Assembly (NCBI GenBank): GCA_009760855.2
Contig: WPIO01000005.1
Location: 6,060,001 to 6,124,000 of the forward strand
DNA: 64,000 nt
Source: Cristatella mucedo
Taxonomy: Eukaryota > Bryozoa > Phylactolaemata > Cristatellidae
Reading direction: 5' to 3'
Numbering within the stretch: the stretch's first letter is position 1; the number at the start of each line of letters is the position of its first letter. The notes beneath the pieces were generated by a model. The model worked only from the letters and a program-made list of their open reading frames with translations. It was not told the DNA's origin and searched no databases. A program made the position numbers and the translations under genes. Shown in pieces: positions 6,606-60,210 of the stretch.

Positions 6606-25103
<18,498 letters not shown>

Positions 25104-28100: not shown

Positions 28101-29689
28101 ATATCACAGGGCCGCGTCCTATGCAGATATCAATGGGCAGTTGCCAAAATCAAAGGCCTTCTTTCAACCAAAACAGATATTGAAGAGCTACAAAATACCC
28201 AAAGCATGAACATCAAGCCATACTTTCTACTTGAGCTTTTTTCATTTGAAATGTAAGCGATTGGCGAGAAAGATTGTTACAGAAGACGCGGAGCCATTGA
28301 CTATACGCTATTTAAGTTTTGGCTATAACATTCATAAACAATTTTCATATCTTGTATGAGCTGCTGGTAAGACAACTACGAAAGCGTACTGTCGCTTATC
28401 CATGACGCCTCCAATGCCCAGTTTTAATCAGCACCGTTAGAACACGGAGGGTGCCGGCGCTAAGCCAGCCGACACCCTCGGGGTCAGTATGTGCTAGCAG
28501 AAGTCGTCCGTACCTAAGTATGGCAACTTGGGATCGCAATGCCGAGCGTGTTTCTCGCATTTGCGTTCGTGTATGCATGGCTAAGTAGCGAAGCAGCCGG
28601 TTCGCGTATGGTACCCGACCTTTGTAGAATTGTTGCTGGCAGTGCCTGAGTGCGACTTCTTCCGATTGCCTGTCTCATAAGTAGCATCTAATCGCAGTCA
28701 AAATCCTATGTAATATCAATCAGACCTGTTGTGATATGTGTAGTTTGACAGCCGATGCCCAACACCTACAGTTTATTAAGGCGCACGGAGCCGAAGGGCG
28801 CACGGATCCCTTCGGCCCCCGCTCGACTGCCTCTCATCGACTCCTCGGCTCCCCTGGTCGACCCCGATGATTCATCGAGGACCACAACTGTGCACACACC
28901 GACCCTGATGGTGAATCCACCATCTGTCCACCAGCGGGTTACCAGCCTGTGTCCACGCCACATCACAGGCGGACTACGCTCCTAACAGCTGTTCACCAGA
29001 GGCTTATCAGAGGAGCCTGCATACCATACATACATACATACATATGAACTACAATATGTGTTGCAGATATTATACGCTAAGAGATGAGGTTTCGATGGTC
29101 AAGTGCTTTTTCGGGAATATTTTGCTTTTTAAATAGTTGCGAGCCGAAATGCGATGAGATCACAAGTAAGCGAAAAAGACATGAACGCAAAGGCATTCGT
29201 ACTGTTAATGTGCGTTATTTATTCATCTGCAAACGAGAATTTCAACAATGCCTAGCTCCAAGACGCAGATATATCTGATAAGCAGCACGAGCTTCACTGG
29301 AGCTTGAGCGATGTGCTTTAGTTTTTTAAGAGTATTTTTTGTCCTTAAACAAAGGGTCGCTTCTTTTTGTGAGACCTGGCTGCATGCAAAGAAATCTAAT
29401 TCGCATCAACACCGCGGTGAGACCGATCGAGGAATGAAGCATGAGGGTCATGGTCAGAGGTATGAGAAACTTATGAAAGACTTAGGAGCAGGAGTCCAGA
29501 GCTTTGATCAGGAATGGGCCAACCGACAGGCACCGGCTCTCCATCAACGAGCATTTCGACTTCTAGGTTCGGTCACACACTTTGCGCTTCCTTAATTCTC
29601 TCGCTCGGACTGCACGATTATAATTCTTCCCAATCAGGCTTTCTATAGTTCTACCTGGTCTTCTGACTCAAGTCGTTTAGTTATGCCTC
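25104..29689. other. P3H downstream region, no recognised gene
   Basis: P3H 3' UTR then intergenic DNA. No clear AATAAA follows the stop. A 126-codon plus ORF at 26662-27042 starts in a good context (ACCACCATGTCG) but shows no domain; it is noted as hypothetical only. Confidence 0.3.
29020..29046. repeat. (CATA)n microsatellite
   Basis: About six CATA units. Confidence 0.8.
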
Positions 29690-29770
29690 TCAACAGCCTC
29701 CTATTCTTTGGAGACCGTGTCTTCAATTCGTATGGTCTCGAAGTCTGGAACTAATCCCCGACTGAAATCA
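29690..29770 (+). mobile_element. LINE-A C-terminal relic
   Basis: CTTTGGAGACCGTGTCTTCA and GGTCTCGAAGTCTGGAACTA correspond to the [14 protein letters not shown] region. The fragment is short and frameless. Confidence 0.5.
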
Positions 29771-29804
29771 CAGTATAATCTGGCTTGATAGTTAAAAAGA
29801 AATA

Positions 29805-29965
29805 ATAATACACTTGATAAAGCGCCTTCAGATAACCCAATCTCTTTCTAGGCGCTTTGCATTTGCTGCAAAGGAAACACGATCGAATGGTGAGTGGTAT
29901 CATGCTTGATAAAAAAACATGAATAACATAGTTAGGGGTGACATGCACAGGGTCAGCATGCAAGT
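29805..29965 (-). mobile_element. LINE-A 3' end fragment
   Basis: Inverted relative to the fragment just before it. AATAATAATA tail, GATAAAGCGCCTTCAG and the 3' UTR block with GACATGCACAGGGTCAGCAT. Confidence 0.7.
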
Positions 29966-30299
29966 GTGAAGAAGCTTGAAGTTCACCTGCTCCTTACAGC
30001 ATTTGCCTGTTCATGTCTCTTGTACGGTAGATATGCTGAAATTGGGCATGCAAGCACTAATCAATTGCTATGGTTCCTTCCCAGTGAATGTATAAAGTTC
30101 CTAGACGGAGATTTAGCTATCTTTAGGTGCTACATAAATGTTTTGTTATTTCTCAGTGCTATAACAGACATTGAAGAGAAGAAAGGAGGTTCTTCTAAGT
30201 CAAATGAGGGGAAAGATCGCAGAGGTGACACACACTTTGGAGACACTGGACTATCGGCACCCAGGCGCTGGCTTGCTTGCATCCCTCTACCTACCTCAG

Positions 30300-31228
30300 A
30301 CCTCATGCTGGTACCGACTTGTGCAATCGGGCGCTTACAGCTAATGCAAAAACCTGCCTCTAGGCTTGTCTGTCATGAGCATCGCAGTTGCCATCTCACC
30401 ACTTCTCGCCGACCTGCACTGGCTTCCAGTCAAGCAACGCAACGACTTCAAGGTTTTGTCACTCACTTTCAGTTCTCTTCATTATTTGGCTCCAGCCTAC
30501 CTATCAGATCTACTCCCACACCGGGATAGCATCGTATCACCTGCTTTTCAAAATCTAATTGTTTACCTATACATCGTACACACCTTAAATCCATTGGAGA
30601 CCGTGCCTTTACTTCGTATGCTCCCAAAGTCTGGAACTCACTACCGACTTGCGATCACGATATCTCCTGACTTGACCGCATTTAAAAAAGAAATTAAAAA
30701 CGCATCATATTGTGGGTCCCTGAGATACGTCCTTTATGTGCTTTTTCGTGCTGACACTGTGCAAGTGTTGCGTGTGTCTGCGGCTTCTTCTTTTGTAATT
30801 AGCGAAGCGCCTTGACACTAATGTACATGCCTCACCTGTGGCCAATAGTTAAGCCATTGACGAAGCGAAGCGGCAGGCCACTAATGCAGGTCATGTGTCT
30901 TGTCGTCTCCTGCGATTCACCAAGCTCTCGTATATGTACGCGTTAAGAGTAGTAAGAGAGAGTTTCGTTTACCGTTCATGTATGCGCTATGTCTCCGTGA
31001 GACTTCCACTAGAACGCCGCCGCCGGAGCCACTGTTATACAACTCATGCTGCCACTAACCATACCTGCATGCTGAACCTGTGCATGTCACTCCTAACGAT
31101 GTTATTCCTATTGTTTATTGAGCATGCTACCAGTAACCATTCGATTGTGCTTGCTTTGCAGCAAATGTAAAGCACCTAGAAAGAGATTGAGTTCTCTGAG
31201 GGCGCTATATCAAATGAATTATTATTAC
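30300..31228 (+). mobile_element. LINE-A 3' third
   Basis: Starts in the codons for TCAIGRLQLMQ and runs through [20 protein letters not shown]-type frame-shifted sequence and a 3' UTR, with a local insertion around 30810-31070. It ends with AAAGCACCTAGAAAGAGATT and ATTATTATT. Confidence 0.75.
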
Positions 31229-34623: not shown

Positions 34624-35412
34624 AGGTAGGTACGATAGGTACCTGAGTAGTACGATTGTAATTTTTTTTAATTTAGAATCTTAATCACTTGAAACTATGT
34701 GACGCACCTATAAAAACTTACAAAACGAACGACTTGTACGACTGGGGAAAGCACTGTGTGTTAGTTAACTTGCAAGCATGCCTGCGGGCTTAGATTATAG
34801 TTGCTTATTGCATTACCGTGTATACTTGGATGCAGAGAACGACGTACATTAATTACCGCCAGTTGAAACGGAATCTCTTAGCGTAAGCAATAAATAGAGC
34901 TAGCTATCTTGTGATTTCGCATAGTCCTCACTTCAGATCTGCCCGACTAACGTCTGACTGCTTGCTCAACATCTGACTGCATGCTCAATTGCCAGTCACT
35001 ATTAGTGCATTCACTCCTGCAGTCGATGCTTGAGCGTTTGCCATAGTTTTCTCAGCCGACAACCCCAACTAACTAAATTTCTATAGAATGACGCGATTAT
35101 CGAGACGCTGTCCGACATGAGGGTAGGTATGCAAATCACGAAGTTGTGAGCAATTATTGCACTGGCCAACCTCAGTCAGGGAAGGGGTCCTAAATATGCC
35201 CACTAAGACGCTTCGGCTAGTCTTTCTCCTGGTTGCAACTCAAAAATGGGCCTCGGCTTTTGCTCGTGCTCCGAGCAACGCAGAAGACATGGGATGAGTG
35301 ACGAACAATGCGGCTTGCAACAGCTAGTGAGCCAATCGTCAGCGCCTACTGAGCGGGCGCTCAGACGTAACAGTCACGTGACTAGCCTACGTGCGGCTGT
35401 CGAGTTAGATCG

Positions 35413-35607
35413 GTTAGTTCTCAACCTTCCTAATGCCGCGACCCTTTAATACAGTTCCTAATGTTTTGGCGACCCCCAACCATAAAATTATTGTGTGCGA
35501 AATTTGAAAATGCGTGTTTTCCGATGGTCTTAGGGGACCCCTGTGAAAGAGTCGTGCGACCCCCCCCCCAAAAAGGGTTTCGACCCACAGGTTGAGAACC
35601 ACTGTAC
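35413..35607. mobile_element. hAT-type MITE resembling the SPIN family
   Basis: The element is 195 bp and non-coding. Both ends carry GTTCTCAACCT inverted repeats (left at 35417, right complement near 35590-35600). Internal blocks such as CCTAATGCCGCGACCCTTTA and TTTTCCGATGGTCTTAGG match what I remember of SPIN (SPace INvader) non-autonomous hAT elements. It is flanked by a perfect 9-bp direct repeat GTTAGATCG (35404-35412 and 35608-35616), hAT-like (8 bp expected). The outermost few bases of the ends are degenerate, and a poly-C run of nine interrupts the right part. Confidence 0.85.
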
Positions 35608-35639
35608 GTTAGATCGTCGTGTGGCGGGGGTGGGGTGGG

Positions 35640-37640
35640 TGCGGGGCGATGTAATTGCAAAGACTGCAAGCCGTGCTCGCAAGAATGCTAGCAAGCGATG
35701 GCCGTCGATGTACGATTGATTCAACGCTGCAGCGGCTCGTTTTCCGGCGGCGCGGTTCTGCGAGTAAAGCGGACGCAGGCTCGCTTAAGCCAGTCGGCGG
35801 TCCATTAGCAGGCCGCGAGTTGGTCCGCCCCACCGCCGCGCTTGCTCAGCTGGTGCCGTAGCGCATTGCCGTCGAAGGTGCGACCGCTCAGCGAGCGCCT
35901 TTCTTATGAGTACGCGACCTCAAAAATGTCTCAGCGAAAGCATTCCAAGCTTTCTCAGCAGAGGCTCGTTCACGCGTGAACGGTCGAGAAAACTTCGTGA
36001 GCGATCGATGGCAGGACAGGGTAGTACATTTTTTTTTGGGCCGCTTGCTGGGAGTGAGAGGTTAGCGGTTCGCGCCAACGGCGTATTGAGCAGCAATCGC
36101 GCCAGTGGCAGCACTTCCGCACCGCGTAAGACCGCGACTGCAGCGTCGGTCTCGCTTGGCGCGTCGCAACCCTGAGGAGAATTTCAAAAGCTCTAGCTGG
36201 CGGTGGTAGAGCTTTTAGAGCGTGGAATGCGCTCACAAAATTTTTTGGAGCTGAATTCTGCCGCGCGGCCGCCCCTCCATGGGAGAGCGCGGCTCGGTAG
36301 CGAGAGCTGGCTGGCGAGCGAACGCGCGCAGCAGTTCCGCTCGAGCGAGCTCAGAAGCCAAGCTGCTCCTTCAGATTCTGGCGTCGGACGACGAAGTCAG
36401 CTCGGCTAGCAACGGCAGCGCCCGGCCTGCCTCTATCGGAGGCGCCTGCGATCCGCGGTTTAGCGAACCTCACTACTGCAGCGACGAATCGGCTGCCATG
36501 GATGCCGACGGCTACCGACGAGAATATGCGGCGACCAAGTTCGGTGCATGCATGCTGTGCAACTCGTGCCTGGAGAACCGGATACTCCGCTGTAAGTGCG
36601 CGCAGCTGCGCCGGGGGCGCGCCTCATCGTCCGTCGGGCGCCGCTATGCTGCTGGCGACCGGCGCGGCGGCTCGTTGAGCCGACGCCATGCGGCGCACCC
36701 TGGCGCCCGCCGGTCGCACTCGCGCCTGTCGTTCCCGCCCAGCGCCGCAAGCAGACCGGCTGCTAGCTCGCACCGCCGCCGGAGTCGGAGCGGCCAGCGA
36801 CAGCTCGGCGGCTGCGACGGCGTCGTCGGGACGCGAGCCTAACGCCATGCAGCTAGAAGATGACGACGATTGCAGCAGCGACAGCGGCGGCCGCGAGCGC
36901 CGCGCTCGCGGCACGTCGATCGGCACGTCGCTCGCGCAGTCCGACCACGCGCTACCAGCCGCCGCCGGCGCGACGCGCGGCGTCGCCGCCGCCGGCGCTC
37001 GTCAGCAGTCGACGGCAGCGGCTATGGAGATCGCGCCGATCGCCGTCAGGCCGCCGGCCCGTCGCAGCCGCAGCCGCAGCCGTTCGGCGTCGACCCGTCG
37101 CCGAGGTCGGCGCCGCTCGAAATCGCGAAGCCGCTCTAAGGGCAGCGGCGGCAGCTTGGCCGGCGCCGGAAGCTGGGTCAGAGTGCGCCAGCACTATCGG
37201 CGGCGGCGCGGTCGGCGAGGGGCGGCGCTCGGCGCCGACGCGCACGCTGCCTCGGCAGCCGACGACGAGGACGACGACGACGAGTGCTACTAGCCGAAAG
37301 CCTTGCCGCCACGCTGGTCGCGCGGTGGCAGCCGCCGAGCGTCTGGATGACCGGCGCGACACTCGTCCGCCGCTGCAACAGCCGCAATGAGGCAGCATTT
37401 GAGCGAGGGATTCCCGGAAGTTCTCTCGCGACCGGATCGGCGCCGCCCAGTCGGCTAGCACCGCAGAGGCCAGCCAGAATGAGGCGACGGGGAAATGTCT
37501 ATTTTTTCAACGCTAAATCACGGTCGCTACATCTCGCTTCGTACTGCGCCGCCGCAGCAGCGCTCAATGCAGACGTCGCAGCGGCCCGTTTCAGCTCGCC
37601 CGCAGTACGCTTGGCCGCCGGACGATATCTGAGCGGGTAC
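35640..37640. promoter_or_regulatory. CpG-rich island
   Basis: About 2 kb is dense in CG dinucleotides and GC-rich codon-like repeats, in sharp contrast to the surrounding AT-leaning DNA. It is consistent with an unmethylated promoter or first-exon region for the candidate RS gene. No TATA box is evident. Confidence 0.55.
36279..37293 (+). CDS. Candidate RS-rich acidic protein in a CpG island, two exons
   Basis: I do not recognise this gene. The proposed model is 36279-36591 joined to 36743-37293 (287 codons). The ATG context is good (CTCCATGG) with an upstream in-frame stop. A consensus donor GTAAGT lies at 36592 and a pyrimidine-rich acceptor (TTCCCGCCCAG) ends at 36742; the phases fit. 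The first exon has a mixed-composition part (ILASDDEVSSASNG, then MDADGYRREYAATKFGACML, then a Cys-rich NSCLENRILRC). The second has an acidic/serine cluster (LEDDDDCSSDSG), an arginine-serine domain (RRSRSRSRSASTRRRGRRR, then SKSRSRSK) and an acidic end DDEDDDDECY. RS domains are typical of nuclear RNA-processing proteins. Because the DNA is very GC rich, several other frames are also open here, so the model could be wrong. Confidence 0.4.
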
Positions 37641-37769
37641 GAAAATTACCGCTAGCACGTTACCGACGAATCTTAACATTCAGCAGTTTCTGGTTGCACT
37701 AGGCAGTAAATGCCAAAGGCGTCTTACTAAGCCTCGCCATTTAGAGGCAATTTCTATACGTCATTGAGA

Positions 37770-47749: not shown

Positions 47750-50700
47750 TCTGTGTGTGTGTCTCTGTGTGTGTCTGTGTGTGTGTGCGTGCGTGTGGGA
47801 TCTAGGGAAGAAGGGAGAGTAGGCTGATGGGATTTGCTGATGGGTGCTCGGCCATGCCGAAGTCCTGCTTTGCGTATTTATGTGTTTTGAGGCTTGCACT
47901 CACCCGAATGAAGAACATTTGTATCATTCGCGCTTGTATAACGCTGCATGACCTCATTTCTAATTTCAGTGGGCATTTGGAGAAGTTTCACAATACAAGT
48001 CCATGATTGGAGAAAATGCAGTCTATTGACGTCTGATGACGTGCATACCAAAACGAATCCGACCGATATAAGAAACTAATGCTAACAGTGATATGCAAAC
48101 AGAGCTGAACTAGCATCTGAAATTTCACATTGATCCGTCGAGTACTAGCCGAGTTATATAATTTACAAGGCACAAAGCTACACTGTAAATGAAGCTGTTT
48201 GAAAGTCACAAGCATGTACCTCAACAAGCTGCAAACACATACCTCAATATATGACGGTTCAACAAGTTGGGACACAATTCGTATATAAAGCAGATATCAG
48301 TAAATATTTTGTTTGTAGATATCTTACTTCTAGTTTAGTTTCAGGTTAGACGTAGCTTGCCTACTCGTTTCTTAATGCATTCTTTCCATGTGGAAATCTT
48401 CAAAACTTCAGATCCCATTTCTAACATGTTCGTCTTTTGAAAGATACCCTATACAATTATTCGATTGTTAGACTTCTCAGTCTTTTCTCGACATTAGCCC
48501 TTAATTCAATAGGACATGAGACTTCATTATAAGCTATTGATTTGTACGATACAGAAATCGACAAAGTTGGTAATATCTATATCAAGACTATCGTACTGAC
48601 GCTAGCATCCTTTATATCAGGTCGTTCCTGCTACCGCACTAGAAAAGCTCAGCTTACTATCGACAACGAACATTTCCTGGTCGGTTTGATGGTACAATCC
48701 TTGGCGACATAAATCAGAGATATTCATCTGCTTGTACACATCCATCCACGGACGCTAGCTGCTCAGGGCATTGCATTTCTTGTTTGTGCTGACTCATGCT
48801 TCTCAATTAGCATGCTATAGATGTTGAGGGTGGCAAGGAGAGGCACAATGGGCAAACCTTGACCTTACTCGGGCCAGACAATCATAGGTGAGCAAGCCGG
48901 CATGTATTTTACTTCGTCTTCGTCCAAGAGGGCCTCAGTAGAAAAGGGCTGCTGATTGGCACCATTCGGTGCAGCTAGCAGACGACAGTCCATTGCTGCT
49001 AGCTAGAACACGCTTTGCTTTTTCTTGAGTACACCTAGCTTCAGCATTCTAGAAAGTCGACGGGGTTTGGCAGAAAAATAAACAATTCGCATCTAAAAAT
49101 TGTGAGCACCATAAATTCTCTGCTGCGAAAGGATGCTATTTCTTTTATGTGTGCCAATACATCATAGCTAGCACCATAGCTTGCACGGCCGTGCAGCTAT
49201 CAAGCTTTCAAAAAGAGCAGTGCAACCATAAAACTACTTGCCGAACATAGGTGCGGCTTAATCAAGTCTTGGTTATCTTATCCGTGTCCCTACTAATTGT
49301 CGAGAATGTCTTGCAAGACCCGTATGCAGAAATGCATCGATGCTGATGCCTCTGGTGTCCTCACAGATCAGAGTGACCTGTCATGACACCAGGGGACCGT
49401 GTTATCATTCATTGTTCATGTCGTGTTTTACATACAGTAAATAGCACTCTGTCTGCTGAATGAGTCTCGGCCAGTTGCTCGTACGACCGTGTTCAACGTA
49501 GATGCTCAATGTGACTACGCTGTTTGCAGCCACTGCATGAACACACATTGCACACAAGTTAGGCATACACTCGGACAGGGGTGGCAGGTTGTAAAAATTA
49601 CATTGGCCTGCCTGTGGACAGGTTAAACTCCCATCCGTCAAAATCATCTCATGAGACCGGCAAGACACGGTGCTCCATTGTCGAAAGGTAAGCACGATGA
49701 AAGCCCAGACTGCTTCGATCACGCTACACAAGACCGATTCTGTACACTCAGCACTAGTGACCCACTCGGTATCACTTACGAGGGCAGGCATGTCAGCAAA
49801 GACGGTCAGAACTTCTTCATCCTCTAATTTGTTGTGCGATATATCAAGACAAGACAGCTTCTGGCAGCCGACAAGGTGCCGGATGTCTGTAGCTGATGTC
49901 AGGTGATTGTGCGATATCTGCAGAGTGCTCAGCAGCGGTAGACAGTCTACAACCATTTTACGCAGCATAGTACCAGTAGTATACCAGGGGTGGCAGGTAT
50001 CAACACGCATCCGGGCATCACTTACCGATGTTCTCGATGACACGAATGAGATTGTTACAGAGGTTGAGTGTACACAGGTTCTGCAGAGGCTCGAGGTTCT
50101 GGATCTTCTGGATGAGGTTCTGCTGAAGGTACAAGCAGCGCAACTGGGTCTGAGCATGCAGATTCTTAATCTCCTTTATGCCATTGCATTCAAGCCAGAG
50201 GCACTTGAGGCCTGTGTACTCGTCCAGGTTCTCTATCTCGTAGAGGCCTGCAAGACACGAAACCGTGGCTGGGCACACTGGGGCACACACGAAAAGTGTC
50301 GATTGCTCGTTTTAGGATGTTTAGAGGAAGTAGCAATCTGCTGGATGCACACAGTTATGGGAGTGTGTGTGCACGTACGTGTGTGTGTGTGTGTGTGTTT
50401 GTTGTAAGAAGAGACGCATAGCACACATAAGAAACAGGCAGCAACAAAACACACCACAAGAACCGCTCTGCCACAAATCCACACGCCTATGAAGGCCTCA
50501 AGGGTGTATTTCGATTGTGCCCTTACTTGGGCCTACACCCTATAGCCAACTCTACAGCCAGCTTCCTTAACACTCTTCCCTCTGCCATTAAATACATGCA
50601 GTGCAAAAAATTCTCACACTATGGCCACAGCTGTTGTTGCAGTAAACTCGTTTGGGTAATAAGTGGATGCAAAGCATGTGAAAATACTTATTTGCAACCC

Positions 50701-50815: not shown

Positions 50816-53800
50816 TTTAGTGCTACCTCATCTCATATCTCATCGCAATTATTTATGACCTCCCATGCCTGGCCAGCTTTTGTGCAGTCGTAAATTGTAG
50901 CACATTCCAAAGAGCCCAAGTTTTACTGGACAGTTCGGCTACTGGTGTAGGCTGAACACACGGCCTCGGCCACCTGTCGATATTGCTCGTAGTTTTATAA
51001 GATTCAAATCAGGCCTCTGTCTGAGCCACTGCACCTGCACCAAATAAGGATTCGTCAAAGCGTACTTTACTCAAGTCATTGTTGATCAAGAAAAGAGGAT
51101 TTCACGGCTCATATACTCTATTTGGGGGTCGCTACATTTGGCAGCAAAGTAACGACCCTAAGAAAACTGCGTAGCAGGTGAAGTAAATTTTGACAAATCC
51201 TTGTTTGGTCTGGTGCAGCGGCTCAGTCAGCTGCCTAATTGGCAAGTGTATGTAGGCCCCGTGTCCTGGTGGCCCACTTGCGATTCTGAATCTCCAGTCG
51301 ATTAGTTCGAAAAAGTGGCAAAAGGCTTTCGAAGAAAGGTTTGCTACAAAAAGTCCTCTGTAAATGCCCCAAAGCGCCCAAGTGCCACAGTGCTTATCTT
51401 GAAGGTGTGGAGTGACGTTTCGGTTGAAGAAATGTACATGTTTGCATTAGGCTTTACAGGAATAGGGAAGATATGGCTTCTGGGATACAGCATAAACAAT
51501 AACACTGGTTAACTACATCTTCAGCTTGATGATTAGCAAGCCAAGCCTGTATGCTGTGATCAGCACATCAGGTTACGAACGAACTACACAGGCTACTCAT
51601 GGAGCCTCGGTAAATGAGTGTGGTCAATTGGCTGCTGACTGAGGCCCAATGAGATAATTACCTTTGTAGTGTAGATAGAGTACATCATTGAGTGCTGGCG
51701 TCATATATAGCTTCAGCTGTTTGCAGTGGTCTCGGAGAAACGCTTTGGTAATGCTGCAATTCAGCAGGGCACAGGAATGTCATACTTGTTGGCAAAACCG
51801 TCTCAGCATGCGGTTAGGCTTACTGTCAGCTCCTGGGCACACCACTCAGGTTCAGGACAAGAGACAGGCAGCAGAGTGAACAAGGCCAGTGTCGGCTGAC
51901 AGGGGTGACTGGTAGCTGTGGTATAGAGAAAACAACCGTGAGACTTTAAAGTGCATATCTGTACGTAAGTGTACGCTACACTATGTATAATTGCCTCTGG
52001 GTCTTACTCCAGGAGCTAAGGTGCTCACTCTTCATGACCCGGGTCGTAGGTTCGAGTCCTGAAGTGGACAATCCTTTATTGTTCACTGCAAGCGATGGTG
52101 ATAGCCGTTAAGGCTCTTCGGCCACTACATAAATGAGGCTGTTAAATAAGCTAAGCTTAGGAAAGGTAGGGAGCATAGTTATTTGAGGGAATAATAATAA
52201 TGATAATAATAATGCACTTGATAAAGCACCCTCAGAGAACTCAATCTCTCTCTAGGCGCTTTACAATTGCTGCAAAGGGAAATGCAATTGAATGGTGTGT
52301 AATATCATGCTTGATAAACAAACAAAATGAATAATATGGCTAGGGGTGACATGCACAGGGTCAGCATGCAAATGTGGTTAGTGCAAGCATGCACAGTGTC
52401 AGTACGCATAAGCACATGAAGGACGAATCACAGGGACCCACCAAATGCTGTCCTAAATAGGTGTGTTTTTAAACTCTTTTTAAGTGTGATTAAGTTAGGG
52501 GATGTTGTGACGCAAAACAGGAGTGAGTTCCAGGCTTTAGGAGCATACGAAATAAAGGCACGGTCTCCAAAGGATTTAAGGTTTGTACGAAGTATTGGTA
52601 AACTGTTGGATTCCGAAAAACGGGTGGTACGATGCTTGGCCTAGTGGTGGAGTAGATCTGAGAGATAGGCTGGAGCCAAAGAATGAAGTGACCTAAAAGT
52701 GAGCGACAAAACCTTGAAGTCGATCCGTTGCTTGACTGGTAGCCAGTGCTGGTCGGCAAGAAGTGGTGTAATGTGTCAACTGCGACGCTCACGACAGACA
52801 AGCCAAGCTGCCGAGTTTTGCACCAGCTGCAATCGCCTAATTGCACATGCCGGTAAGCCAGCAAGCAGTGAGTTACAGAAGTCAAGACGGAATGTCACAA
52901 ATGCATGGACCAACTTGGACGTGGTATCCTTATCTAAACAAGCCCGAATTTTAGCAATGGTATGTAGCTGAAAATAGGCTGATTAGACTGTGGAGCTGAT
53001 ATGGTCGTCTAACGAGAGGTCACTTTGGAATATGACACGTAGATTTCGAGCTGATTCAACAGGAGATATGCTGGAAGAGCCAATTTTGAGTGTCAGCCTT
53101 TCCAATTTGTGAATCACACTGGATTTGCTCATAACTAGTAAGTTAGTTTTGTCATCGTTTAGTTTTAGAAAATTTGCTGCCATCCATGTGCGGCTGTCAT
53201 CAATACATGCAGCAAGTGAGTTGAGAGAATTTGAGGAGCTCGAAGGCTGGGAGGGATCAAAGCAAAGGTACAACTGAGTGTCATCAGCATAGAAGTGAAA
53301 GCCTAGATTGTGCTTGGCAATCACATCAGCAAGAGGCAGAGTATAAACCGTGAAAAGAACCAGACCTAGCACGGAGCCCTGAGGTACCCCATATTTCATA
53401 GGTACCTCGGATGATCTTTGTCCATTCACATCAATACTCTGGAGTCTCCCACTGAGATAGGATCTGAACCACTGCAGAGCAGTGCCAGTGATGCCCAGGC
53501 GAGATGAGAGGCGCTCTTGAAGAACTTTGTGATCAATGGTATCAAAAGCTGCCGAAAGATCGAGCAAAACAAGCAGAGACACTCTACCTATGTCTGCATT
53601 CCTAAGTAGGTCGTTGTATATGCTAAGCAATGCTGACTCTGTGGAGTGACTAGCTCTAAAGCCAGACTGGAACTTACTAGCAAGGTGTGAGGTTTCGATA
53701 TATGTGTTCAGCTGGTCCGCCACGACCCGTTCCACTGTCATTGATAAGAATGGTAGAAGGGAGACTGGGCGGTAGTTGCTTAAGTTCTCTTGGTCTAGTG

Positions 53801-56800
53801 TAGCTTTCTTGAGAAGTGGCATGACTACAGCTTTTTTGAAAGGTGCTGGGACATGACCTGAGGCTAATGACATATTAATGATGTTAGTTATGCATGGCAG
53901 CAGCAGATCAATGCAACGTAGGAGCAGGACAGTGAGAATAGGGTCCAGAGGACTTGTTGTCTTCTTTGATTGAGATACAAACTTCAGGACTAGATCACTA
54001 GTTACCTGCTTAAATGTAGACATCGAGGTGCAGCCAGGAATCGGGGAACAGCATTCTAGTGGGGATGTTGTCATCGCAGGGATGGATTCCCCGATCTTGT
54101 CTATCTTCTGCACAAAGAATCGAGAGAAGCAATCGGCTAGATCATCACAAGGATCATCCGGTAAGGAGCTAATCTGGGAGCGGTTGAGGAGATGGTTGAT
54201 CGTCGACATCAGCATTTTTGGATTGTGCATCTGTGATTCAACAATGTTTCTATAGAAGCTAGACTTGGCCTTGGCTAGGATCGATTGGTAGGACCTACAG
54301 TAGTTTTCACATGCCTGTCGATGGACAGTCAGCCCAGATCTTTTGTATGCTTTTTCAAGCTTTCGCTTAGTAGACCTGGCTAGTTTAATGTCTGTGGCAA
54401 ACCATAGGCCGTCTGGGCGCCTCCCCCCCCCACAGTGCGCTTTGTCAGAGGTGCAAACTCGTCGAGCGTGTCAGCTAGTGTCGTGCTGTAGCTGGCCGTG
54501 ATGGCACACTAGGTAAGGCGCCAGCTTTCACGACCTCGGTCCCGAGGTCGTGGGTTCGATTCCTGCGGTGGGCGATCCTTTATCGCCACTGCAAGCAGTA
54601 GTGATAGCTGTAAAGGCTCTTCTGTCGCAATACAAAAAGAGGCTGTTTAATCAGCTAGGATTTATTTATTATTATTTACCAATGATGACAGATCGGAGGG
54701 AGGACTGAGCAGCAGAGGTGAAACAGATATTCTTGCAAGGACAGCATCGATGTCAAAGGTCTTGAGGTTTCGTGATTCACAGGTTATTTTAGAGGAGGAG
54801 GTGGGCACACACTGTAGATTGAATGAGTTCTGCAGGGAAGCTTTTTTTATTGGGCTTTGCCCTATATGTTGTCTGAATGGCGCACCTCTTCGTAAGCCAT
54901 GATTAGCACTAGTCCCATTCAAGAAGCGCTGCCCATGAGGACACTGCGATACTGAATGCTCGAGGCCGGACGGGATGTTCGCATGCATAGGGACAGCGAA
55001 GCACTAGGATGCAAAGCGCCTGCTACTTGCCTCCGTCCATAATTGTATTCAGCCATCAAGACCAAGCAGCCATTATGCTGACGGCTATTTAACTACTGCA
55101 CTCATAACCAAAGTGACTCTTGGGGTGCGACTGGTAGCTCCCATACCGAGTTCATTTCGTGCGATAGAGAACAACTCGAGGAGCTCAGATAGGTTGGTCG
55201 ATGAAGTACGTCGAAGAGCTCAGTCACTAACAATCTTATCATGCTGACCCTGTGGATGTCACCTGTAGCCATGTTATCCTTGTTGACATTGTGCATGCTA
55301 TTACTAACCATCGTTAGTGCTTGCTGGCATACTGGCCTTCAATCTCAGACGCTTACAGCTGGTAAAATTAATATGTCATTAGCCTCAGGTCAGGTCCCAG
55401 CACCTTTCAAAAAAGCTGTAGTCAGGCCACTTCTCAAGAAAGCTACACTAGACCAAGAGAACTTAAGCAACTACCGCCCAGTCTCCCTTCTACCATTCCC
55501 ATCAAAGACACTGGAACGGGTCGTGGCGGACCAGCTGAACTCGTATATCGAAACCTCACACCTTGCTAGTAAGTTCCAGTCTGGCTTTAGAGCTAATCAC
55601 TCCACAGAGTCAGCATTGCTTCGGGTATACAACGACCTACTTAGGAATGCAGACATGGGTAGAGTGTCTCTTCTTGTTTTGCTCGATCTTTCGGCAGCTT
55701 TTGATACCATCGATCACAAAGTACTTCTAGAGCGCCTCTCATCTCGCCTGGGCATCACTGGCACTGCTCTGCAGTGGTTCAGGTCCTATCTCAGTGGGAG
55801 ACTCTAGAGTGTTGACGTGAATGGACAAAGATCATCTGAAGTACCTCTAAAATATGGAGTACCTCAGGGCTCTGTGCTAGGTCCGGTCCTTTTCACCGTT
55901 TATACTCTCCCTCTCGCTGATGTGATTGATAAGCACAATCTAGGCTTTCACTTCTATGCGGATGACACTCAGTTGTACCTTTGCTTTGATCCCTCCCAGC
56001 CTTCGAGCACCTCAAATTCTCTCAACTCACTTGCTGCATGCATTGATGACATCCGATTATGGATGGCAGCAAATTTTCTAAAACTAAACGATGATAAAAC
56101 TAACTTACTAGTTATGGGCAAACCTAGTGTTATTCAGAAATTGGAAAGGCTGACTTTCAAAATTGGCTCTGCCAGCATATCTCCAGTTGCATCAGCTCGA
56201 AATCTAGGTGTCATATTCCAAAGCGACCTCTCGTTAAACGACCACATCAGCTCCACAGTCAAATCAGCCTATTTTCAGCTTCATAACATTGCTAAAATTA
56301 GGGCTTGTTTAGATAAGGATACCACGTCCAAGTTGGTCCATGCATTCGTGACATCTCGTCTCGACTTCTGCAACTCACTGCTTACTGGCCTACCAGCATG
56401 TGCGATCAGGCGATTGCAGCTGGTGCAAAACTCGGCAGCTAGGCTTGTCTGTCGTGAGCGTCGCAGTTGCCACATTACTCCACTTCTCGCCGACCTGCAC
56501 TGGTTACCAGTCAAGCAACGTATTGACTTCAAGGTTTTGTCGCTCACTTTTAGGTCTCTTCATTCTATGGCTCCAGCCTATCTTTCAGATATACTACCCC
56601 ATCAGGCAAAGCATCGTACCACTCGCTTTTCGGAATCCAACAGTCTAGAAATACCTCGTACAAACCTTAAATCCTTTGGAGACCGTGCATTTAGCTCGTA
56701 TGCTCCCACAGCCTGGAACTCCTTCCCGACCTGCATCAGAACATCCCCTGACCTGATCACATTTAAAAGAAACTTAAAAACATACCTATTTAGGACAGCA

Positions 56801-58660
56801 TTTGGTGGGTCCCTGTGATTCGTCCTCGATGTGCTTATGCGTGCTGACACTGTTCATGCTGCCACTAACCACATTTGCATGCTGACCCAGTGCATGTAAC
56901 CCCTAACCATGTTATTCATTTTGTTTGTTTTTCAAGCATGATTTTACTTACTATTCTATTGCGTATCACTTTGCAGCAAATGTAAAGCGCCTAGAAAGAG
57001 ATTAAGTTCTCTGAGGGCGCTTTATCAAGTGCAATATTATTATTATTATTATTAAAAAACTCTGCAGCTAGGCTTGTCTCTCGTGAGGGTCGCAGTTGCC
57101 ACATCACACCACTTCTTGCTGACCTGCAGTGGCTCCCAGTCCAGCAACGCATCGACTTCAAGGTTTTTCCACTCACTTTCAGGTCCCTTCATTCTTTGGC
57201 TCCAGCCGACCTATCAGATTTACTCCCCCACCAGAGTAAGCATCGTACCACCTGGTTTTCGGAACCTAACTGTATACCTATACTTTTGGAGATCGTGCCT
57301 TTTGTTCGCATGTTCCTAAAGCCTGGAACTCACTCCCGACTTGCATCACGACATCTCCTGACTTGACAACATTTAAAAAGAAACTAAAAACGCACCTATT
57401 TATGTCAGCATTTGGTGGGTCCCTGTGATTCGTCCTTTATGTGCCTATGCGTGCTGACACTGTGCTTGCTGCCACTAATCATACTTGCATGCTGACCCTG
57501 CACATGTCACCCCTAATAATGCTATTCTTATTGTTTATTAAGCATGCTACCACTAACCATTCCATCGTTCTTTCTTTGCAGCAATTTTAAAGTACCTAGA
57601 TATTGATTGAGCTTTCTGAGGGTGCTTTATCAAATGTATTATTATTATTATTAGTATCTGATCATGCTGATCATGCTTCCTTTACAGCATACATAAAGTG
57701 CCTAGAAAGAGATTAAGTTCTCTGAGGGAGCTACACAAGTTTATTATTATTATTATTAAGAAGAAGAAACATCAGCTAATGACGACACTGCAGAGAAAAT
57801 AGATAGAGAGGGTGACACGAGAAAAATGTACCACTATCGCACATTAATCGAAGCAGTGCATTTCACAGTTTGGGATACACAGAGCGATAGCACCCCGTGG
57901 TTCGAACTCGAAAAGAAAGGGCAGCTAATTCCTTACCACAAGAAAACCAGTGGGTATGAGAAGGCTAATAGCGTTGTAACAACTCGGTTAGCAGGAGCTA
58001 GGGAGGCGTGACAGGAGTGCATGAGGAGGGTAAGAACTTGGGCTCATATCCACAGTTCAATCGGCCAGCCACTACCACCACAGCCTCTTTAACAAAGAGG
58101 ATGCGTAGCTTACTATTGATTTAAAGATTGGCCTAGTGGTCACACTTAGGACGGCCAATGGGGGATTTTCGGCAGCCTAACAAAAAAAGAGAGTTAAAAC
58201 AGCCGAGCCCAGAGAGAACCTGAGCAAGTGTAAGCTAGTGAACAAGCAAAAAGCACAGGGCTCACCGTGGATAATCAGCTTTTTTGGAGCTGCTGTCCGG
58301 CTCACCGCTTGCCTGGCCTGCCTCGGTTTTCGGCTGTAATTCGCCATAGATACCAGTTTGATCAGCTTTCTCAGTTGGTACTGTCGAGTTGTCTGCCTTT
58401 TCCCCTTCGGTCACCACTGGTTCAGAGCCTTCCGGGCTTGGTTCTTGGAGAGATGCAGTCGTTTCTATGGCGACGGGGCTGCTGCTGGTCTCATCAATAG
58501 CCTTAGTGTCATCGCACAGTAAAGCATTTACCGAGCTCTTGCCTGTATCGATTTCCATATCGTCGGAGCAAAACTCGGGGGCCTCTGTATAGAGCCGTTG
58601 GTCGTTGTAGGTGATGACGAGTGAGTTGCTATTATTTTCATTAGCAATCCTTTCTTCCAT
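38204..58660 (-). CDS. DNAAF1: Dynein axonemal assembly factor 1 (LRRC50), twelve exons
   Basis: DNAAF1 is a cytoplasmic LRR protein needed to preassemble outer and inner dynein arms of motile cilia. Exons from 5' to 3' are 58266-58660, 51662-51753, 50026-50247, 49780-49946, 47038-47112, 46640-46790, 44502-44770, 44135-44276, 41757-41924, 40327-40382, 39396-39467 and 38204-38353. They sum to 1959 nt (652 codons plus stop) with consistent phases. Diagnostic blocks are [18 protein letters not shown], then leucine-rich repeats with [19 protein letters not shown], then the LRR-cap [14 protein letters not shown] and [18 protein letters not shown], nearly identical to animal DNAAF1. The tail is acidic and weakly conserved, with [13 protein letters not shown] resembling the family's C-terminal acidic block. 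The ATG is set by an in-frame TAG 12 nt upstream and a G at -3 and +4. Exons 9 and 10 are the least certain. Intron 1 (6.5 kb) is full of LINE sequence. Confidence 0.9.
39396..39467 (-). CDS. DNAAF1: DNAAF1 exon 11: acidic MPELED block
   Basis: Acceptor TTTAACAG, donor GTGGGA, phase 0 to 0, 24 codons. [18 protein letters not shown] resembles the vertebrate C-terminal segment DDLPDLEDDDE. The other frames contain stops. Confidence 0.78.
39860..39965 (-). mobile_element. LINE-A 3' tail in DNAAF1 intron 10
   Basis: AATAATGCACCTGATAAAGC then the stem-loop and GCTAAGGGAACCGCGATTGA. Only the tail is present. Confidence 0.7.
40327..40382 (-). CDS. DNAAF1: DNAAF1 exon 10 (tentative, GC donor)
   Basis: Acceptor AATTACAG, incoming phase 1. 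[18 protein letters not shown] resembles the acidic tail of DNAAF1. To leave in phase 0 and join exon 11 it must use a GC donor (CGAG|GCATGT), a known minor donor class. The next usable frames hit stop codons in exon 11. Confidence 0.5.
41045..41440 (+). mobile_element. LINE-C 3' fragment with (ATTAC)n tail
   Basis: A plus-strand frame reads [20 protein letters not shown], the C-terminal motif of CR1/L2-type LINEs, but the following 3' UTR differs from LINE-A. It ends GGAGATACATTACATTACAT. The same 3' end occurs at 4383-4515 and 33945-34000. Confidence 0.7.
41757..41924 (-). CDS. DNAAF1: DNAAF1 exon 9 (tentative)
   Basis: Acceptor GATGTCAG, donor GTAAGC, phase 1 to 1, 168 nt. It is open in the only frame that joins exons 8 and 10. 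The sequence is Gly/Ser/Arg rich with no family motif. Because it is phase symmetric it could be skipped without frame loss. Confidence 0.5.
42068..42195 (-). mobile_element. SINE-A copy, minus strand of an inverted pair
   Basis: The reverse complement carries the family tail (GAGCTGTTAAATCAGCTAAC) and the TGACCACGGCAAATGGTGAT core. It faces the plus copy at 42210-42362 head to head. In DNAAF1 intron 8. Confidence 0.6.
42210..42362 (+). mobile_element. SINE-A copy, plus strand of an inverted pair
   Basis: B box GATTCGAGTCC, then GTCGATCCTTTATTGACTAC, CATGAAGGCTCCCTGCTGCT and GGGGCTGTTAAATCAGCTTA. Confidence 0.65.
42452..42618 (-). mobile_element. SINE-B copy with internal duplication
   Basis: Tail AATTTATTTGTATAGCGCCC. 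CGACCTCGGTCATCAAA occurs twice in the head part, making it longer than sister copies. In DNAAF1 intron 8. Confidence 0.65.
43655..43760 (+). mobile_element. SINE-A fragment
   Basis: Only AAGGTTCTTCTAGCTCTGTA and the tail GTGGCTGTTAATTCAACTAC remain. The centre is deleted. Confidence 0.4.
43890..44030 (-). mobile_element. SINE-B copy
   Basis: ATTCATTTGTATAGCACCCC, TTTGGGGCTCGAGCCTATGA and CAGCCAGACCTTGGTCTGGG. In DNAAF1 intron 8, about 100 bp from exon 8. Confidence 0.7.
44135..44276 (-). CDS. DNAAF1: DNAAF1 exon 8
   Basis: Acceptor GTTGCAG, donor GTGAGT, incoming phase 0, outgoing phase 1. Peptide [20 protein letters not shown] then a Ser-rich acidic stretch. There is no strong family motif here; the call rests on splice signals, phase and position. 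Confidence 0.7.
44502..44770 (-). CDS. DNAAF1: DNAAF1 exon 7: helical and acidic linker
   Basis: Acceptor CTTTGTAG, donor GTAAGA, incoming phase 1, outgoing phase 0. The exon begins [20 protein letters not shown], continuing the helix of exon 6, then becomes acidic and Ser-rich. The frame joins exon 6 exactly. Confidence 0.82.
46640..46790 (-). CDS. DNAAF1: DNAAF1 exon 6: LRR cap, [11 protein letters not shown] block
   Basis: Acceptor GCTTTCAG, donor GTATGC, incoming phase 0, outgoing phase 1. [20 protein letters not shown] is the most conserved stretch of DNAAF1 and identifies the gene. It runs into a basic/acidic helix ([18 protein letters not shown]). Confidence 0.95.
47038..47112 (-). 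CDS. DNAAF1: DNAAF1 exon 5: start of LRR cap
   Basis: Acceptor TTTTCTAG, donor GTAAGT, phase 0 to 0, 25 codons. [20 protein letters not shown] matches [20 protein letters not shown]-type sequence of the family. The exon is too short for a simple ORF scan and is easy to miss. Confidence 0.93.
47520..47640 (-). mobile_element. SINE-B copy
   Basis: ATAATTCATCTGGATAGCAC, GAACTTAATCTCTCCCAAGG, CAGGGGTCGAGCATGCGAGC and GAGCACCTCTCCCCTGGGC. Directly followed by the compound GA/GT microsatellite. Confidence 0.6.
47656..47795. repeat. Compound (GA)n(GT)n microsatellite
   Basis: About 27 GA units then GT runs with CT interruptions, in DNAAF1 intron 4. Confidence 0.95.
49780..49946 (-). CDS. DNAAF1: DNAAF1 exon 4: leucine-rich repeats 4-5
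   Basis: Acceptor GGTTGTAG, donor GTAAGT, incoming phase 1, outgoing phase 0. Blocks [15 protein letters not shown] and [20 protein letters not shown] match the family repeats that end with ...SMPDL. Confidence 0.93.
50026..50247 (-). CDS. DNAAF1: DNAAF1 exon 3: leucine-rich repeats 1-3
   Basis: Acceptor TCTTGCAG, donor GTAAGT, phase 1 to 1. It encodes three SDS22-like repeats: [20 protein letters not shown], then [20 protein letters not shown], then [17 protein letters not shown]. Confidence 0.95.
50376..50400. repeat. (GT)n microsatellite
   Basis: Short GT run in DNAAF1 intron 2, about 130 bp from exon 3. Confidence 0.85.
50724..50813. repeat. GT/GCAT microsatellite
   Basis: GT run, then GCATGCGCATGCATGCGTGC, then about 20 GT units. 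The alternating purine-pyrimidine stretch favours Z-DNA. Confidence 0.9.
51662..51753 (-). CDS. DNAAF1: DNAAF1 exon 2: pre-LRR conserved block
   Basis: Acceptor ATTGCAG, donor GTAATT, incoming phase 2, outgoing phase 1. [20 protein letters not shown] followed by [10 protein letters not shown] matches the conserved block just before the first leucine-rich repeat. Confidence 0.92.
51990..52165 (+). mobile_element. SINE-A copy
   Basis: A clean B box GGTTCGAGTCC, then GTGGACAATCCTTTATTGTT, GCCGTTAAGGCTCTTCGGCC and the tail ATGAGGCTGTTAAATAAGCT. It ends just before the LINE-A copy at 52190. Confidence 0.7.
52983..54230 (-). pseudogene. LINE-A reverse transcriptase ORF, truncated by a stop
   Basis: This open stretch of 415 codons covers most of the non-LTR reverse transcriptase, with fingers/palm motifs in order and an intact FYADD box. 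The reading frame continues upstream of the first Met (FYRNIVESQ...), so the Met is not a real start. It ends at a nonsense TAA after ISSTV, where sister copies read [12 protein letters not shown]. Lacking an endonuclease and the C-terminal end, it is not expected to be active. Confidence 0.85.
54490..54665 (+). mobile_element. SINE-A copy nested in LINE-A
   Basis: Best preserved head: A box TGGCACACTAGGTAAGG, B box GGTTCGATTCC (perfect consensus). The body has GGCGATCCTTTATCGCCACT and the tail GAGGCTGTTTAATCAGCTAG. It splits the LINE-A ORF between the codons for SSLV and [12 protein letters not shown]. An 11-bp palindrome (54529-54539 with 54542-54552) lies between the boxes. Confidence 0.78.
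55365..57052 (+). mobile_element. LINE-A copy, plus strand, one nonsense codon
   Basis: The copy is 5' truncated, beginning at [16 protein letters not shown], and ends in the conserved stem-loop and (ATT)n tail at about 57030-57052. The reverse transcriptase frame is open from 55365 to 56818 except for one TAG at 55806-55808, where sisters have CAG. It includes [10 protein letters not shown] and the C-terminal block [20 protein letters not shown]. It is close in sequence to the copies at 52190-54990 and 58715-60210, so insertion is probably fairly recent. A 3'-UTR-like relic lies just before it (55236-55330). Confidence 0.88.
57053..57650 (+). mobile_element. LINE-A 3' fragment, tandem to previous copy
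   Basis: It begins immediately after the (ATT)n tail of the preceding element with the codons for the [12 protein letters not shown]-like region and ends with its own AAAGTACCTAGA... stem-loop and (ATT)n. The frame is broken and it is older than the upstream copy. Confidence 0.8.
57685..57762 (+). mobile_element. LINE-A 3' tail only
   Basis: A third successive tail: AGTGCCTAGAAAGAGATTAA, then TTCTCTGAGGGAGC and (ATT)n. It is in the same orientation as the two copies before it. Confidence 0.7.
58266..58660 (-). CDS. DNAAF1: DNAAF1 exon 1: start codon and acidic N-terminus
   Basis: The ATG is at 58658-58660. An in-frame TAG lies 12 nt upstream, and the context has G at -3 and +4. The exon codes 131 residues plus two bases, donor GTGAG. 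The region is rich in Glu, Ser, Thr and Asp and low in hydrophobics, so probably disordered, as in vertebrate DNAAF1 N-termini. Confidence 0.75.
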
Positions 58661-58714
58661 TACCGAATTCTACAAGCCCTGTTAAGGTTGAGTTGTAGTG
58701 AATGAGTTAACAGC

Positions 58715-60210
58715 AAAATAATAATAATAATAATAATAATAACAATGCACTTGATAAAGCGCCCTCAGAGAACTTAATCTCTTTCTAGGCGCTTTACATT
58801 TGCTGCAAAGAAAAATGCAATTGAATGGTAAGTAAAATCATGCTTGAAAAATAAATACCATGAATAATAGGGGTGACATGTTAGGTTAGGGGTGACATGC
58901 ACAAGGTCAGCATGCAAATGTGGTTAGTGGCAGCATGCACAGTGTCAGCATGCATAAGCACATGAAGGACGAATCATAGGGACCCACTGTATGCTGTCCT
59001 AAATAGGTGTGTTTTCAAGTTCCCTTTAAATGTGGTCAGGTCAGGGGATGTTCTGACGCAGGTCGGGAGGGAGTTCCAGGCTTTGGGAGCATACGAACTA
59101 AATGCACGGTCTCCGAAGGATTTAAGGTTTGTACGAGGTATTTGTATACTGTTGGATTCCGAAAAGCGGGTGGTACGATGCTTGGCCTGATGGGGTAGTA
59201 TATCTGAGAGATAGGCTGGAGCCATAGAATGAAGAGACCTAAAAGTGAGCGGCAAAACCTTGAAGTCAATCCGTTGCTTGACTGGTAGCCAGTGCCGGTC
59301 GGCAAGAAGTGGTGTAATGAGTCAACTGCGACGCTCACGACAGACAAGCCTACCTGCGGAGTTTTGCACCAGCTGCAATCGCCTGATCGCACATGCTGGT
59401 AGGCCAGTAAGCAGTGAGTTGCAGAAGTCGAGACGGGATGTCACGAATGCATGGACCAACTTGGACAAGGTATCCTTATCTAAACAAGCCCGAATTTAAG
59501 CAATGTTATGGAGCTGAAAATAGGCAGCTTTGACTGTAGAGCTGATATGGTCGTCTAACGAGAGGTCGCTTTGGAATATGACACGTAGATTTCGAGCTGA
59601 TGCAACAGGAGATATGCTGGCAGAGCCAATTTTGAGAGACAGCCTTTCCAATCTCTGAATCACAGTGGGTTTTCCCATAACTAGTAAGTTAGTTTTGTCA
59701 TCGTTTAGTTTAAGAAAATTTGCTGCCATCCATGTGCGGATGTCATCAATACATGCAGCAAGTGAGTTGAGAGAATTTGAGGTGCTCGAAGGCTGGGAGG
59801 GATCAAAGCAAAGGTACAATTGAGTGTCATCCGCATAGAAGTGAAAGCCTAGATTGTGCTTGGAAATCACATCAGCAAGAGTGAGAGTATAAACCGTGAA
59901 AAGAACCGGACCTAGCACGGAGCCCTGAGGTACTCCATATTTCAGAGGTACTTCAGATGATCTTTGTCCATTCACGTCAAAACTCTGGAGTCTCCCACTG
60001 AGATAGGACTTGAACCACTGCAGAGCAGTGCCAGTGATGCCCAGGCGAGATGAGAGGCACTCTAGAAGAACTTTGTGATCGATGGTATCAAAAGCTGCCG
60101 AAAGATCGAGCAAAACAAGCAGAGACACTCTACCCATGTCTACATTCCTAAGTAGGTCGTTGTATACCCCAAGCAATGCTGACTCTGTGGAGTGATTAGC
60201 TCTAAAAGTG
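58715..60210 (-). mobile_element. LINE-A copy next to the DNAAF1 start
   Basis: The 3' (ATT)n tail is at 58718-58745 and the 5' truncation at about 60210 (after SANHSTESA-like codons). The RT segment is open over 59496-60176 with [10 protein letters not shown] intact and ends at a TAA (AAA changed) after LHNIA. The C-terminal domain is at 58974-59392. The tail ends about 60 bp upstream of the DNAAF1 ATG in the same transcriptional direction. Confidence 0.85.

Follow-up and report, generated by a model that had tools for sequence, protein, structure and literature searches.

SPIN elements (Space Invaders) are a textbook case of DNA transposons crossing animal phyla, and Lymnaea is counted among their hosts. 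The elements have been placed in the Buster family, in which TcBuster has a target type of nnnTAnnn (PMC3499496). SPIN entry into murine rodents and four other mammal lineages is dated to 15-46 million years ago (PMC5857283), and 385 SPIN elements are given for the painted turtle (PMC4054807). An account of the snail Biomphalaria glabrata describes a SPIN-like hAT with significant identity to SPIN and about 1,000 copies, and states that no intact transposase was detected for DNA transposons (PMC5440852). Another, on the bug Rhodnius prolixus, describes SPIN_NA elements and the transfer of SPIN into that insect (PMC11614815). Judged by these descriptions, the Biomphalaria family resembles the one reported here in being a high-copy, SPIN-related family of an invertebrate, and the Rhodnius elements resemble it as SPIN in an invertebrate but differ in their insect host. 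The host genome, 572 Mb with a GC of 46% in the window, is unlike that of B. glabrata, which is larger and has a GC of ~36%. Both the SPIN kind of element and jumps of this sort are already known, including from a snail and a bug; what may be new is the host.

The window (the whole 64-kb stretch of DNA that was analysed) lies in a 13.6-Mb contig of a host assembly of 572 Mb and 688 contigs. Comparison with a family consensus and a search of the whole genome identify, at 35411-35604 on the plus strand, a 194-bp non-autonomous SPIN-type hAT element (MITE) without coding capacity. The first-pass annotation had proposed a SPIN-like hAT MITE of 195 bp, and its kind has held up, as a decayed, non-autonomous SPIN-type element of about 194 bp. 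The SPIN-like termini that it described hold for the family; in the window copy both ends are damaged. The copy differs from a 40-copy consensus (which includes the copy itself) at 16/187 aligned columns, a K of 0.091. An 11-nt perfect inverted repeat, GTTCTCAACCT/AGGTTGAGAAC, occupies 35417-35427 and 35589-35599. It lies within a damaged left terminal inverted repeat on the plus strand (35411-35427), which reads CGGTTAGTTCTCAACCT in place of the CAGTGGTTCTCAACCT expected from 39 other copies, with CGGTTAG where CAGTGG is expected, and a right terminal inverted repeat on the minus strand (35589-35604, AGGTTGAGAACCACTG) that is complete by comparison with the ends of other copies. At the right, the copy runs CACTG, then TA, then CGTTAGAT. 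Reading of the plus-strand letters also gives GCGACCC motifs at 35438-35444, 35469-35475 and 35556-35562 and a TCGACCC motif at 35580-35586; these are possibly subterminal transposase-binding repeats, a putative role suggested by hAT biology. A C/A tract at 35560-35579, also on the plus strand, is altered: it has ten C, five A and GGGTT where the consensus reads CCCCCAAAGGGGTC. No second copy of the family was found within the 64-kb window (the best other blastn match had an E of 0.45), and an Rfam search of the window gave 0 matches at the gathering cut-off.

Outside the window the family is abundant. A search of the host assembly with the element returned 2221 first-look candidates, of which the best 40 were scored, 40/40 at E<=4.5e-57, and the best non-self match to the window element is 88% identical. 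Exact matches to the 25-nt left end number 270 in the genome (0 for a backward-read control), so that the further genome copies the first-pass annotation had asked about exist in high number. The 39 other copies most similar to the window copy were compared in detail, and the counts and ages taken from them lean with that choice. Against these copies the left-end probe agrees at 20-25 of its 25 positions and the right-end probe at 19-24 of its 24; their ends are CAGYG...CRCTG with an 8-bp duplication directly abutting. The abutting 8-mers are identical in 11/39 and match at seven or more of eight positions in 24/39, and TA stands at positions 4-5 in 23 of these 24, giving the target type nnnTAnnn. 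The family consensus is 187 bp long, lacks coding capacity and has the ends CAGTGGTTCTCAACC...GGTTGAGAACCGCTG. The 8-bp target-site duplication and short terminal inverted repeats starting CAG are features of hAT elements, and the nnnTAnnn type is that of the Buster group; the short, non-coding form and many copies with common ends are those of a MITE. Mean divergence over 40 copies is a K of 0.061 (0.051 without CpG sites), and the window copy, at 16/187, is more diverged than that mean. A second sample of 20 copies, chosen from the first 100 of the 270 places and required to have the exact left end, showed duplications of 7 or 8/8 in 9/20. Its mean K was 0.093 (0.048-0.183) over the 16 copies with a recognisable right end, with four of the 20 (L092, L099, L105 and L108) left out.

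The target site of the window copy is less simple than it appears. The perfect 9-bp direct repeat GTTAGATCG that the first-pass annotation had pointed out is present, at 35404-35412 and 35608-35616, and its description there as an intact target duplication fails: the repeat is out of register, and both element ends are damaged. Its right copy begins three bases beyond the right end of the element, and when the copy is aligned to the ends of the family, its two flanking 8-mers agree at 0/8 positions. Offset and damaged ends together rule out the repeat as an intact duplication. It is nevertheless a real relic, because a perfect 9-mer repeat at such spacing was found at only 0.07% of 200,000 random places in the window (with a slack of +-4 nt allowed on either side). 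The best reading is that the duplication of this copy would be AGTTAGAT at 35403-35410, of the type nnnTAnnn, and CGTTAGAT at 35607-35614 (neither with a strand), matching at 7/8 positions and offset by 2 nt on the right. The offset would correspond to two bases, TA, at 35605-35606, apparently extra by comparison with other copies and placed at the junction of element end and duplication, again without strand. On this reading the last two letters of the left 9-bp repeat fall within the element. The 9-bp repeat and the flanks were also considered as evidence of a common locus for the window copy and L014 (target-site duplication GGTTAGAT) and rejected, as the two copies match no further than the element and at most 12-14 nt of flank.

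Assignment to SPIN draws on two sources, one uncurated and one printed. The first is an uncurated reference consensus that we take to be the mouse SPIN/URR1-type repeat; it was set down in advance of seeing any other copy. The window copy differs from this putative mouse consensus at 14/166 columns, of which the 39-copy consensus agrees with the putative mouse sequence in 12 and with the window in 2. A single additional column has the window in agreement with the putative mouse sequence and the 39-copy consensus differing from it. The 40-copy consensus equals the putative mouse consensus at 79/81 and 84/85 columns of the two outer blocks (163/166, 98%). The putative mouse sequence also has a central 150 nt that is absent from the window element; searched against the genome as a prediction, this region matched the best 40 of 108 candidates at 83-94% identity, 40/40 of them scored at E<=4.8e-34. 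Had the sequence been wrong, its central part could not have found matching copies in the host. Its mouse origin has the support of printed primers in the outer blocks and is presumed for the central block.

These primers form the second source. Two papers print two Ate1 mouse reverse primers (PMC2767504, PMC2837401), which match the window element at 19/20 and 18/20 positions, although the second had not itself been searched for. Three Kcnq1ot1 primers, assumed from their context to be mouse, are printed in two others (PMC3447949, PMC6221546) and match it at 20/25, 18/20 and 15/20. With four of these five primers 0/1000 shuffles reached the match; the Kcnq1ot1 forward primer (15/20) is weak alone, its score being reached by 4/1000 shuffles and at one other place in the window. 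Eight control primers gave 9-14 matches to the window element. Against the family consensus, the five mouse-locus primers match at 18/20, 18/20, 20/25, 19/20 and 15/20. A Dscaml1 primer (PMC8028178) was judged a chance likeness, at 14/20 and reached by 13/1000 shuffles. A literature search with six pieces from the central block, and another with six different ones from the outer blocks, found none of them in print, and a search of viral contigs for SPIN words gave 0 matches and was uninformative. The internal blocks that the first-pass annotation had likened to SPIN are supported by the 39 copies, the mouse primers and the central-region search, a comparison with uncurated and printed sequence. 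Together these lines support reading the window element as SPIN type.

Longer members of the family are also present. Forms of about 320 bp with SPIN ends and nnnTAnnn sites occur in the host genome, and a consensus of 28 longer copies equals the putative mouse sequence at 297/304 aligned columns, a figure that leans because the copies were picked by likeness to that sequence. Three copies (L113, L115 and L116) extend past the 320-bp form. A 3,288-bp copy, L138, has both SPIN ends and a 7/8 duplication, GCTTAATC/GCTTAAAC, and its interior holds transposase-related pieces with broken frames. Seven of these pieces gave no hAT match in Pfam, and the transposase pieces gave nothing useful against PDB and nothing against NCBIfam. 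One 120-aa piece of L138 gave 12 matches in the genome, made up of its own locus, three at E<=1e-8, one at C658 and seven weak ones. The three strong matches sit in two further loci, L140 (C133) and L141/L142 (C676), each with a SPIN left end alongside in the same orientation. There are thus three loci at which a SPIN left end stands beside transposase-related sequence, one of them with the right end as well, and all are broken. A search for an autonomous hAT, as the first-pass annotation had suggested, yields transposase-related sequence next to SPIN ends, in wrecked form: no intact transposase-bearing copy was present among the loci read.

A chain of similarities gives good support to a hAT origin of these pieces. 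Two of the seven weak places, L143 and L144, were fetched, and their E values against the 120-aa piece are 2e-9 for L143 and 4e-11 for L144. L144 has DUF4371 at E 1.3e-5 and a hAT dimerisation region at E 0.005, both below the Pfam cut-off; over 340 aa it has 92% identity with L086, which is above the cut-off for PF05699 (hAT dimerisation). Because the piece resembles L144, L144 resembles L086 and L086 passes that cut-off, the transposase sequence associated with the SPIN ends is probably derived from a hAT. The older PF05699 loci themselves, L086-L089, were rejected as autonomous SPIN: no SPIN end pair was found at <=3 mismatches in 4 kb for each, and their surroundings hold only two single weak SPIN-end matches. 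Compared with tetrapod SPIN (the putative mouse SPIN/URR1-type consensus), the family is alike in its termini, its outer blocks, its nnnTAnnn sites and the central block of its longer copies; it differs in its common short form, only ~187 bp long for want of the central ~140 nt, and in its invertebrate host.

The genome also contains a very young Ac-type hAT family (L054-L083; 63 matches to PF05699 at E<=1.1e-16, by our count). Some of its open frames are ~640 aa long, and in their longest aligned piece 29/29 of the other loci fetched have 99.0-99.9% identity with L059; this family may possibly still be active. At C44:3588049-3588285 its domain lies within an open frame of 1947 aa, against ~640 aa elsewhere, which could be either a fusion or a chance read-through. 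The family has the hAT superfamily and the genome in common with the window family and differs in its near-uniform copies and its ends: its element end is ...GTACAGCCCTA, unlike SPIN ends. It was rejected as the source of the SPIN ends, having this different end and no SPIN end within reach in L054-L083.

The first-pass annotation had remarked that the genome otherwise looks invertebrate, and the mitochondrial code agrees. The mitochondrial contig, C688, is 21,008 bp long (20,000 of them read) and encodes COX1 (E 2e-132) with 11 in-frame TGA. AGA and AGG are stops in the vertebrate mitochondrial code; here they occur 6-31 times in each of eight mitochondrial open frames (named by eye), and the host is therefore not a vertebrate. 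ND1-ND6-CYTB-ND4L-ND4-ND5 lie in this order on one strand of C688, which we take to be a molluscan/lophotrochozoan block. The mitochondrial genome, ~21 kb with a GC of 0.44, encodes ND2 on the other strand from the majority of its genes, and an open frame of ~100 aa appears three times in C688 (11632, 13747 and 3078), once inverted. An ARAGORN search of the mitochondrial pieces returned 0 tRNAs. Five further COX1-like stretches with stops, on C166, C83 (two), C549 and C299, are probably nuclear copies of mitochondrial DNA.

The window has a GC of 46%, and four 500-bp tiles at 35501-37500 form a CpG island (GC 0.58-0.73, CpG o/e 1.22-1.41). The element sits just upstream of these tiles, at the edge of the island as had been claimed. 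Further along, 36250-37650 is CpG-rich, and each of its strands has long open frames that overlap and are rich in R, S and A; the one tested had no Pfam match. Many copies of one non-LTR retrotransposon lie in the window (7079-8232, 14603-15001, 29523-31227 and 52190-60206), with a reverse transcriptase match (PF00078) at 8.8e-28 and some copies 90-99% identical. One SPIN-type copy elsewhere, L105, which has the central block, is broken off by sequence that resembles this LINE by eye, an interruption that bears on the relative ages of the SPIN-type and LINE repeats. Leucine-rich-repeat exons at 49770-50300 on the minus strand (Pfam LRR_8 below cut-off) presumably resemble the ciliary gene DNAAF1.

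The element at 35411-35604 is very probably a dead MITE copy of a SPIN-type hAT family that entered an invertebrate lineage horizontally and then multiplied there. SPIN transposase from longer copies would have acted in trans through terminal repeats of ~16 bp, excising the MITE and pasting it into an 8-bp nnnTAnnn target, which would have been duplicated on insertion. In the window copy, substitutions would later have accumulated, the C/A tract would have been altered and both ends would have been damaged. Activity of the SPIN family appears to have been lost since, to judge from a search for intact copies that was not exhaustive. Horizontal entry is favoured because non-coding sequence is nearly identical to the putative mouse consensus and single copies are ~5-18% off their own consensus.

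Those same two observations weigh against the idea that a SPIN-like hAT family descended vertically from the common ancestor of host and tetrapods. Unselected non-coding DNA keeps far less identity over the more than 500 million years since the protostome-vertebrate split. An identity to the putative mouse consensus of 163/166 in the outer blocks and 297/304 in the longer form is too high for such descent, and copies only ~5-18% off consensus imply a burst much younger than the split; vertical inheritance seems very improbable, even with the comparison limited to one animal genome, the host's own. A different hAT family, of Charlie or Buster type, might instead have merely short termini in common with SPIN. 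Short hAT ends are alike, the genome has further hAT families and the comparison was with uncurated and printed sequence, but the likeness spans the whole element, each outer block included, and takes in the central block of the longer copies, and the end of the genome's young hAT family, ...GTACAGCCCTA, is of a different kind; we would be surprised if this were the explanation.

Contamination with vertebrate DNA, or a chimeric contig, is very unlikely, indeed close to negligible. The window copy lies within a 13.6-Mb contig, and the 40 scored copies lie at dozens of places on many contigs with differing flanks and 8-bp duplications; outside the element, the flanks of the window copy (200 nt on the upstream side, 12 nt on the downstream side) resemble those of none of the other copies compared. 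Its place at the edge of the CpG island could also suggest that the element was co-opted into a promoter at 35.5-37.5 kb. A copy that is more diverged (16/187) than the 40-copy mean, with damaged ends and no sign of constraint, makes such a role highly improbable. The SPIN-type MITE of horizontal origin remains the preferred reading.

Few invertebrate SPIN carriers are in print in the literature covered. It is conceivable, if a little doubtful, that the host belongs to an invertebrate lineage without reported SPIN, perhaps as a mollusc other than Biomphalaria or Lymnaea, and one that has kept MITEs of ~187 bp, forms of ~320 bp and transposase-bearing wrecks of ~3.3 kb. The picture of what SPIN is and how it acts is unchanged. 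If the reading is true, the SPIN wave would have reached one more host, in which transfer between invertebrates and tetrapods could be dated and given a direction. Short, middle and transposase-bearing forms in another invertebrate genome would be of use in working out the carriers of SPIN, the direction of its movement and its timing.
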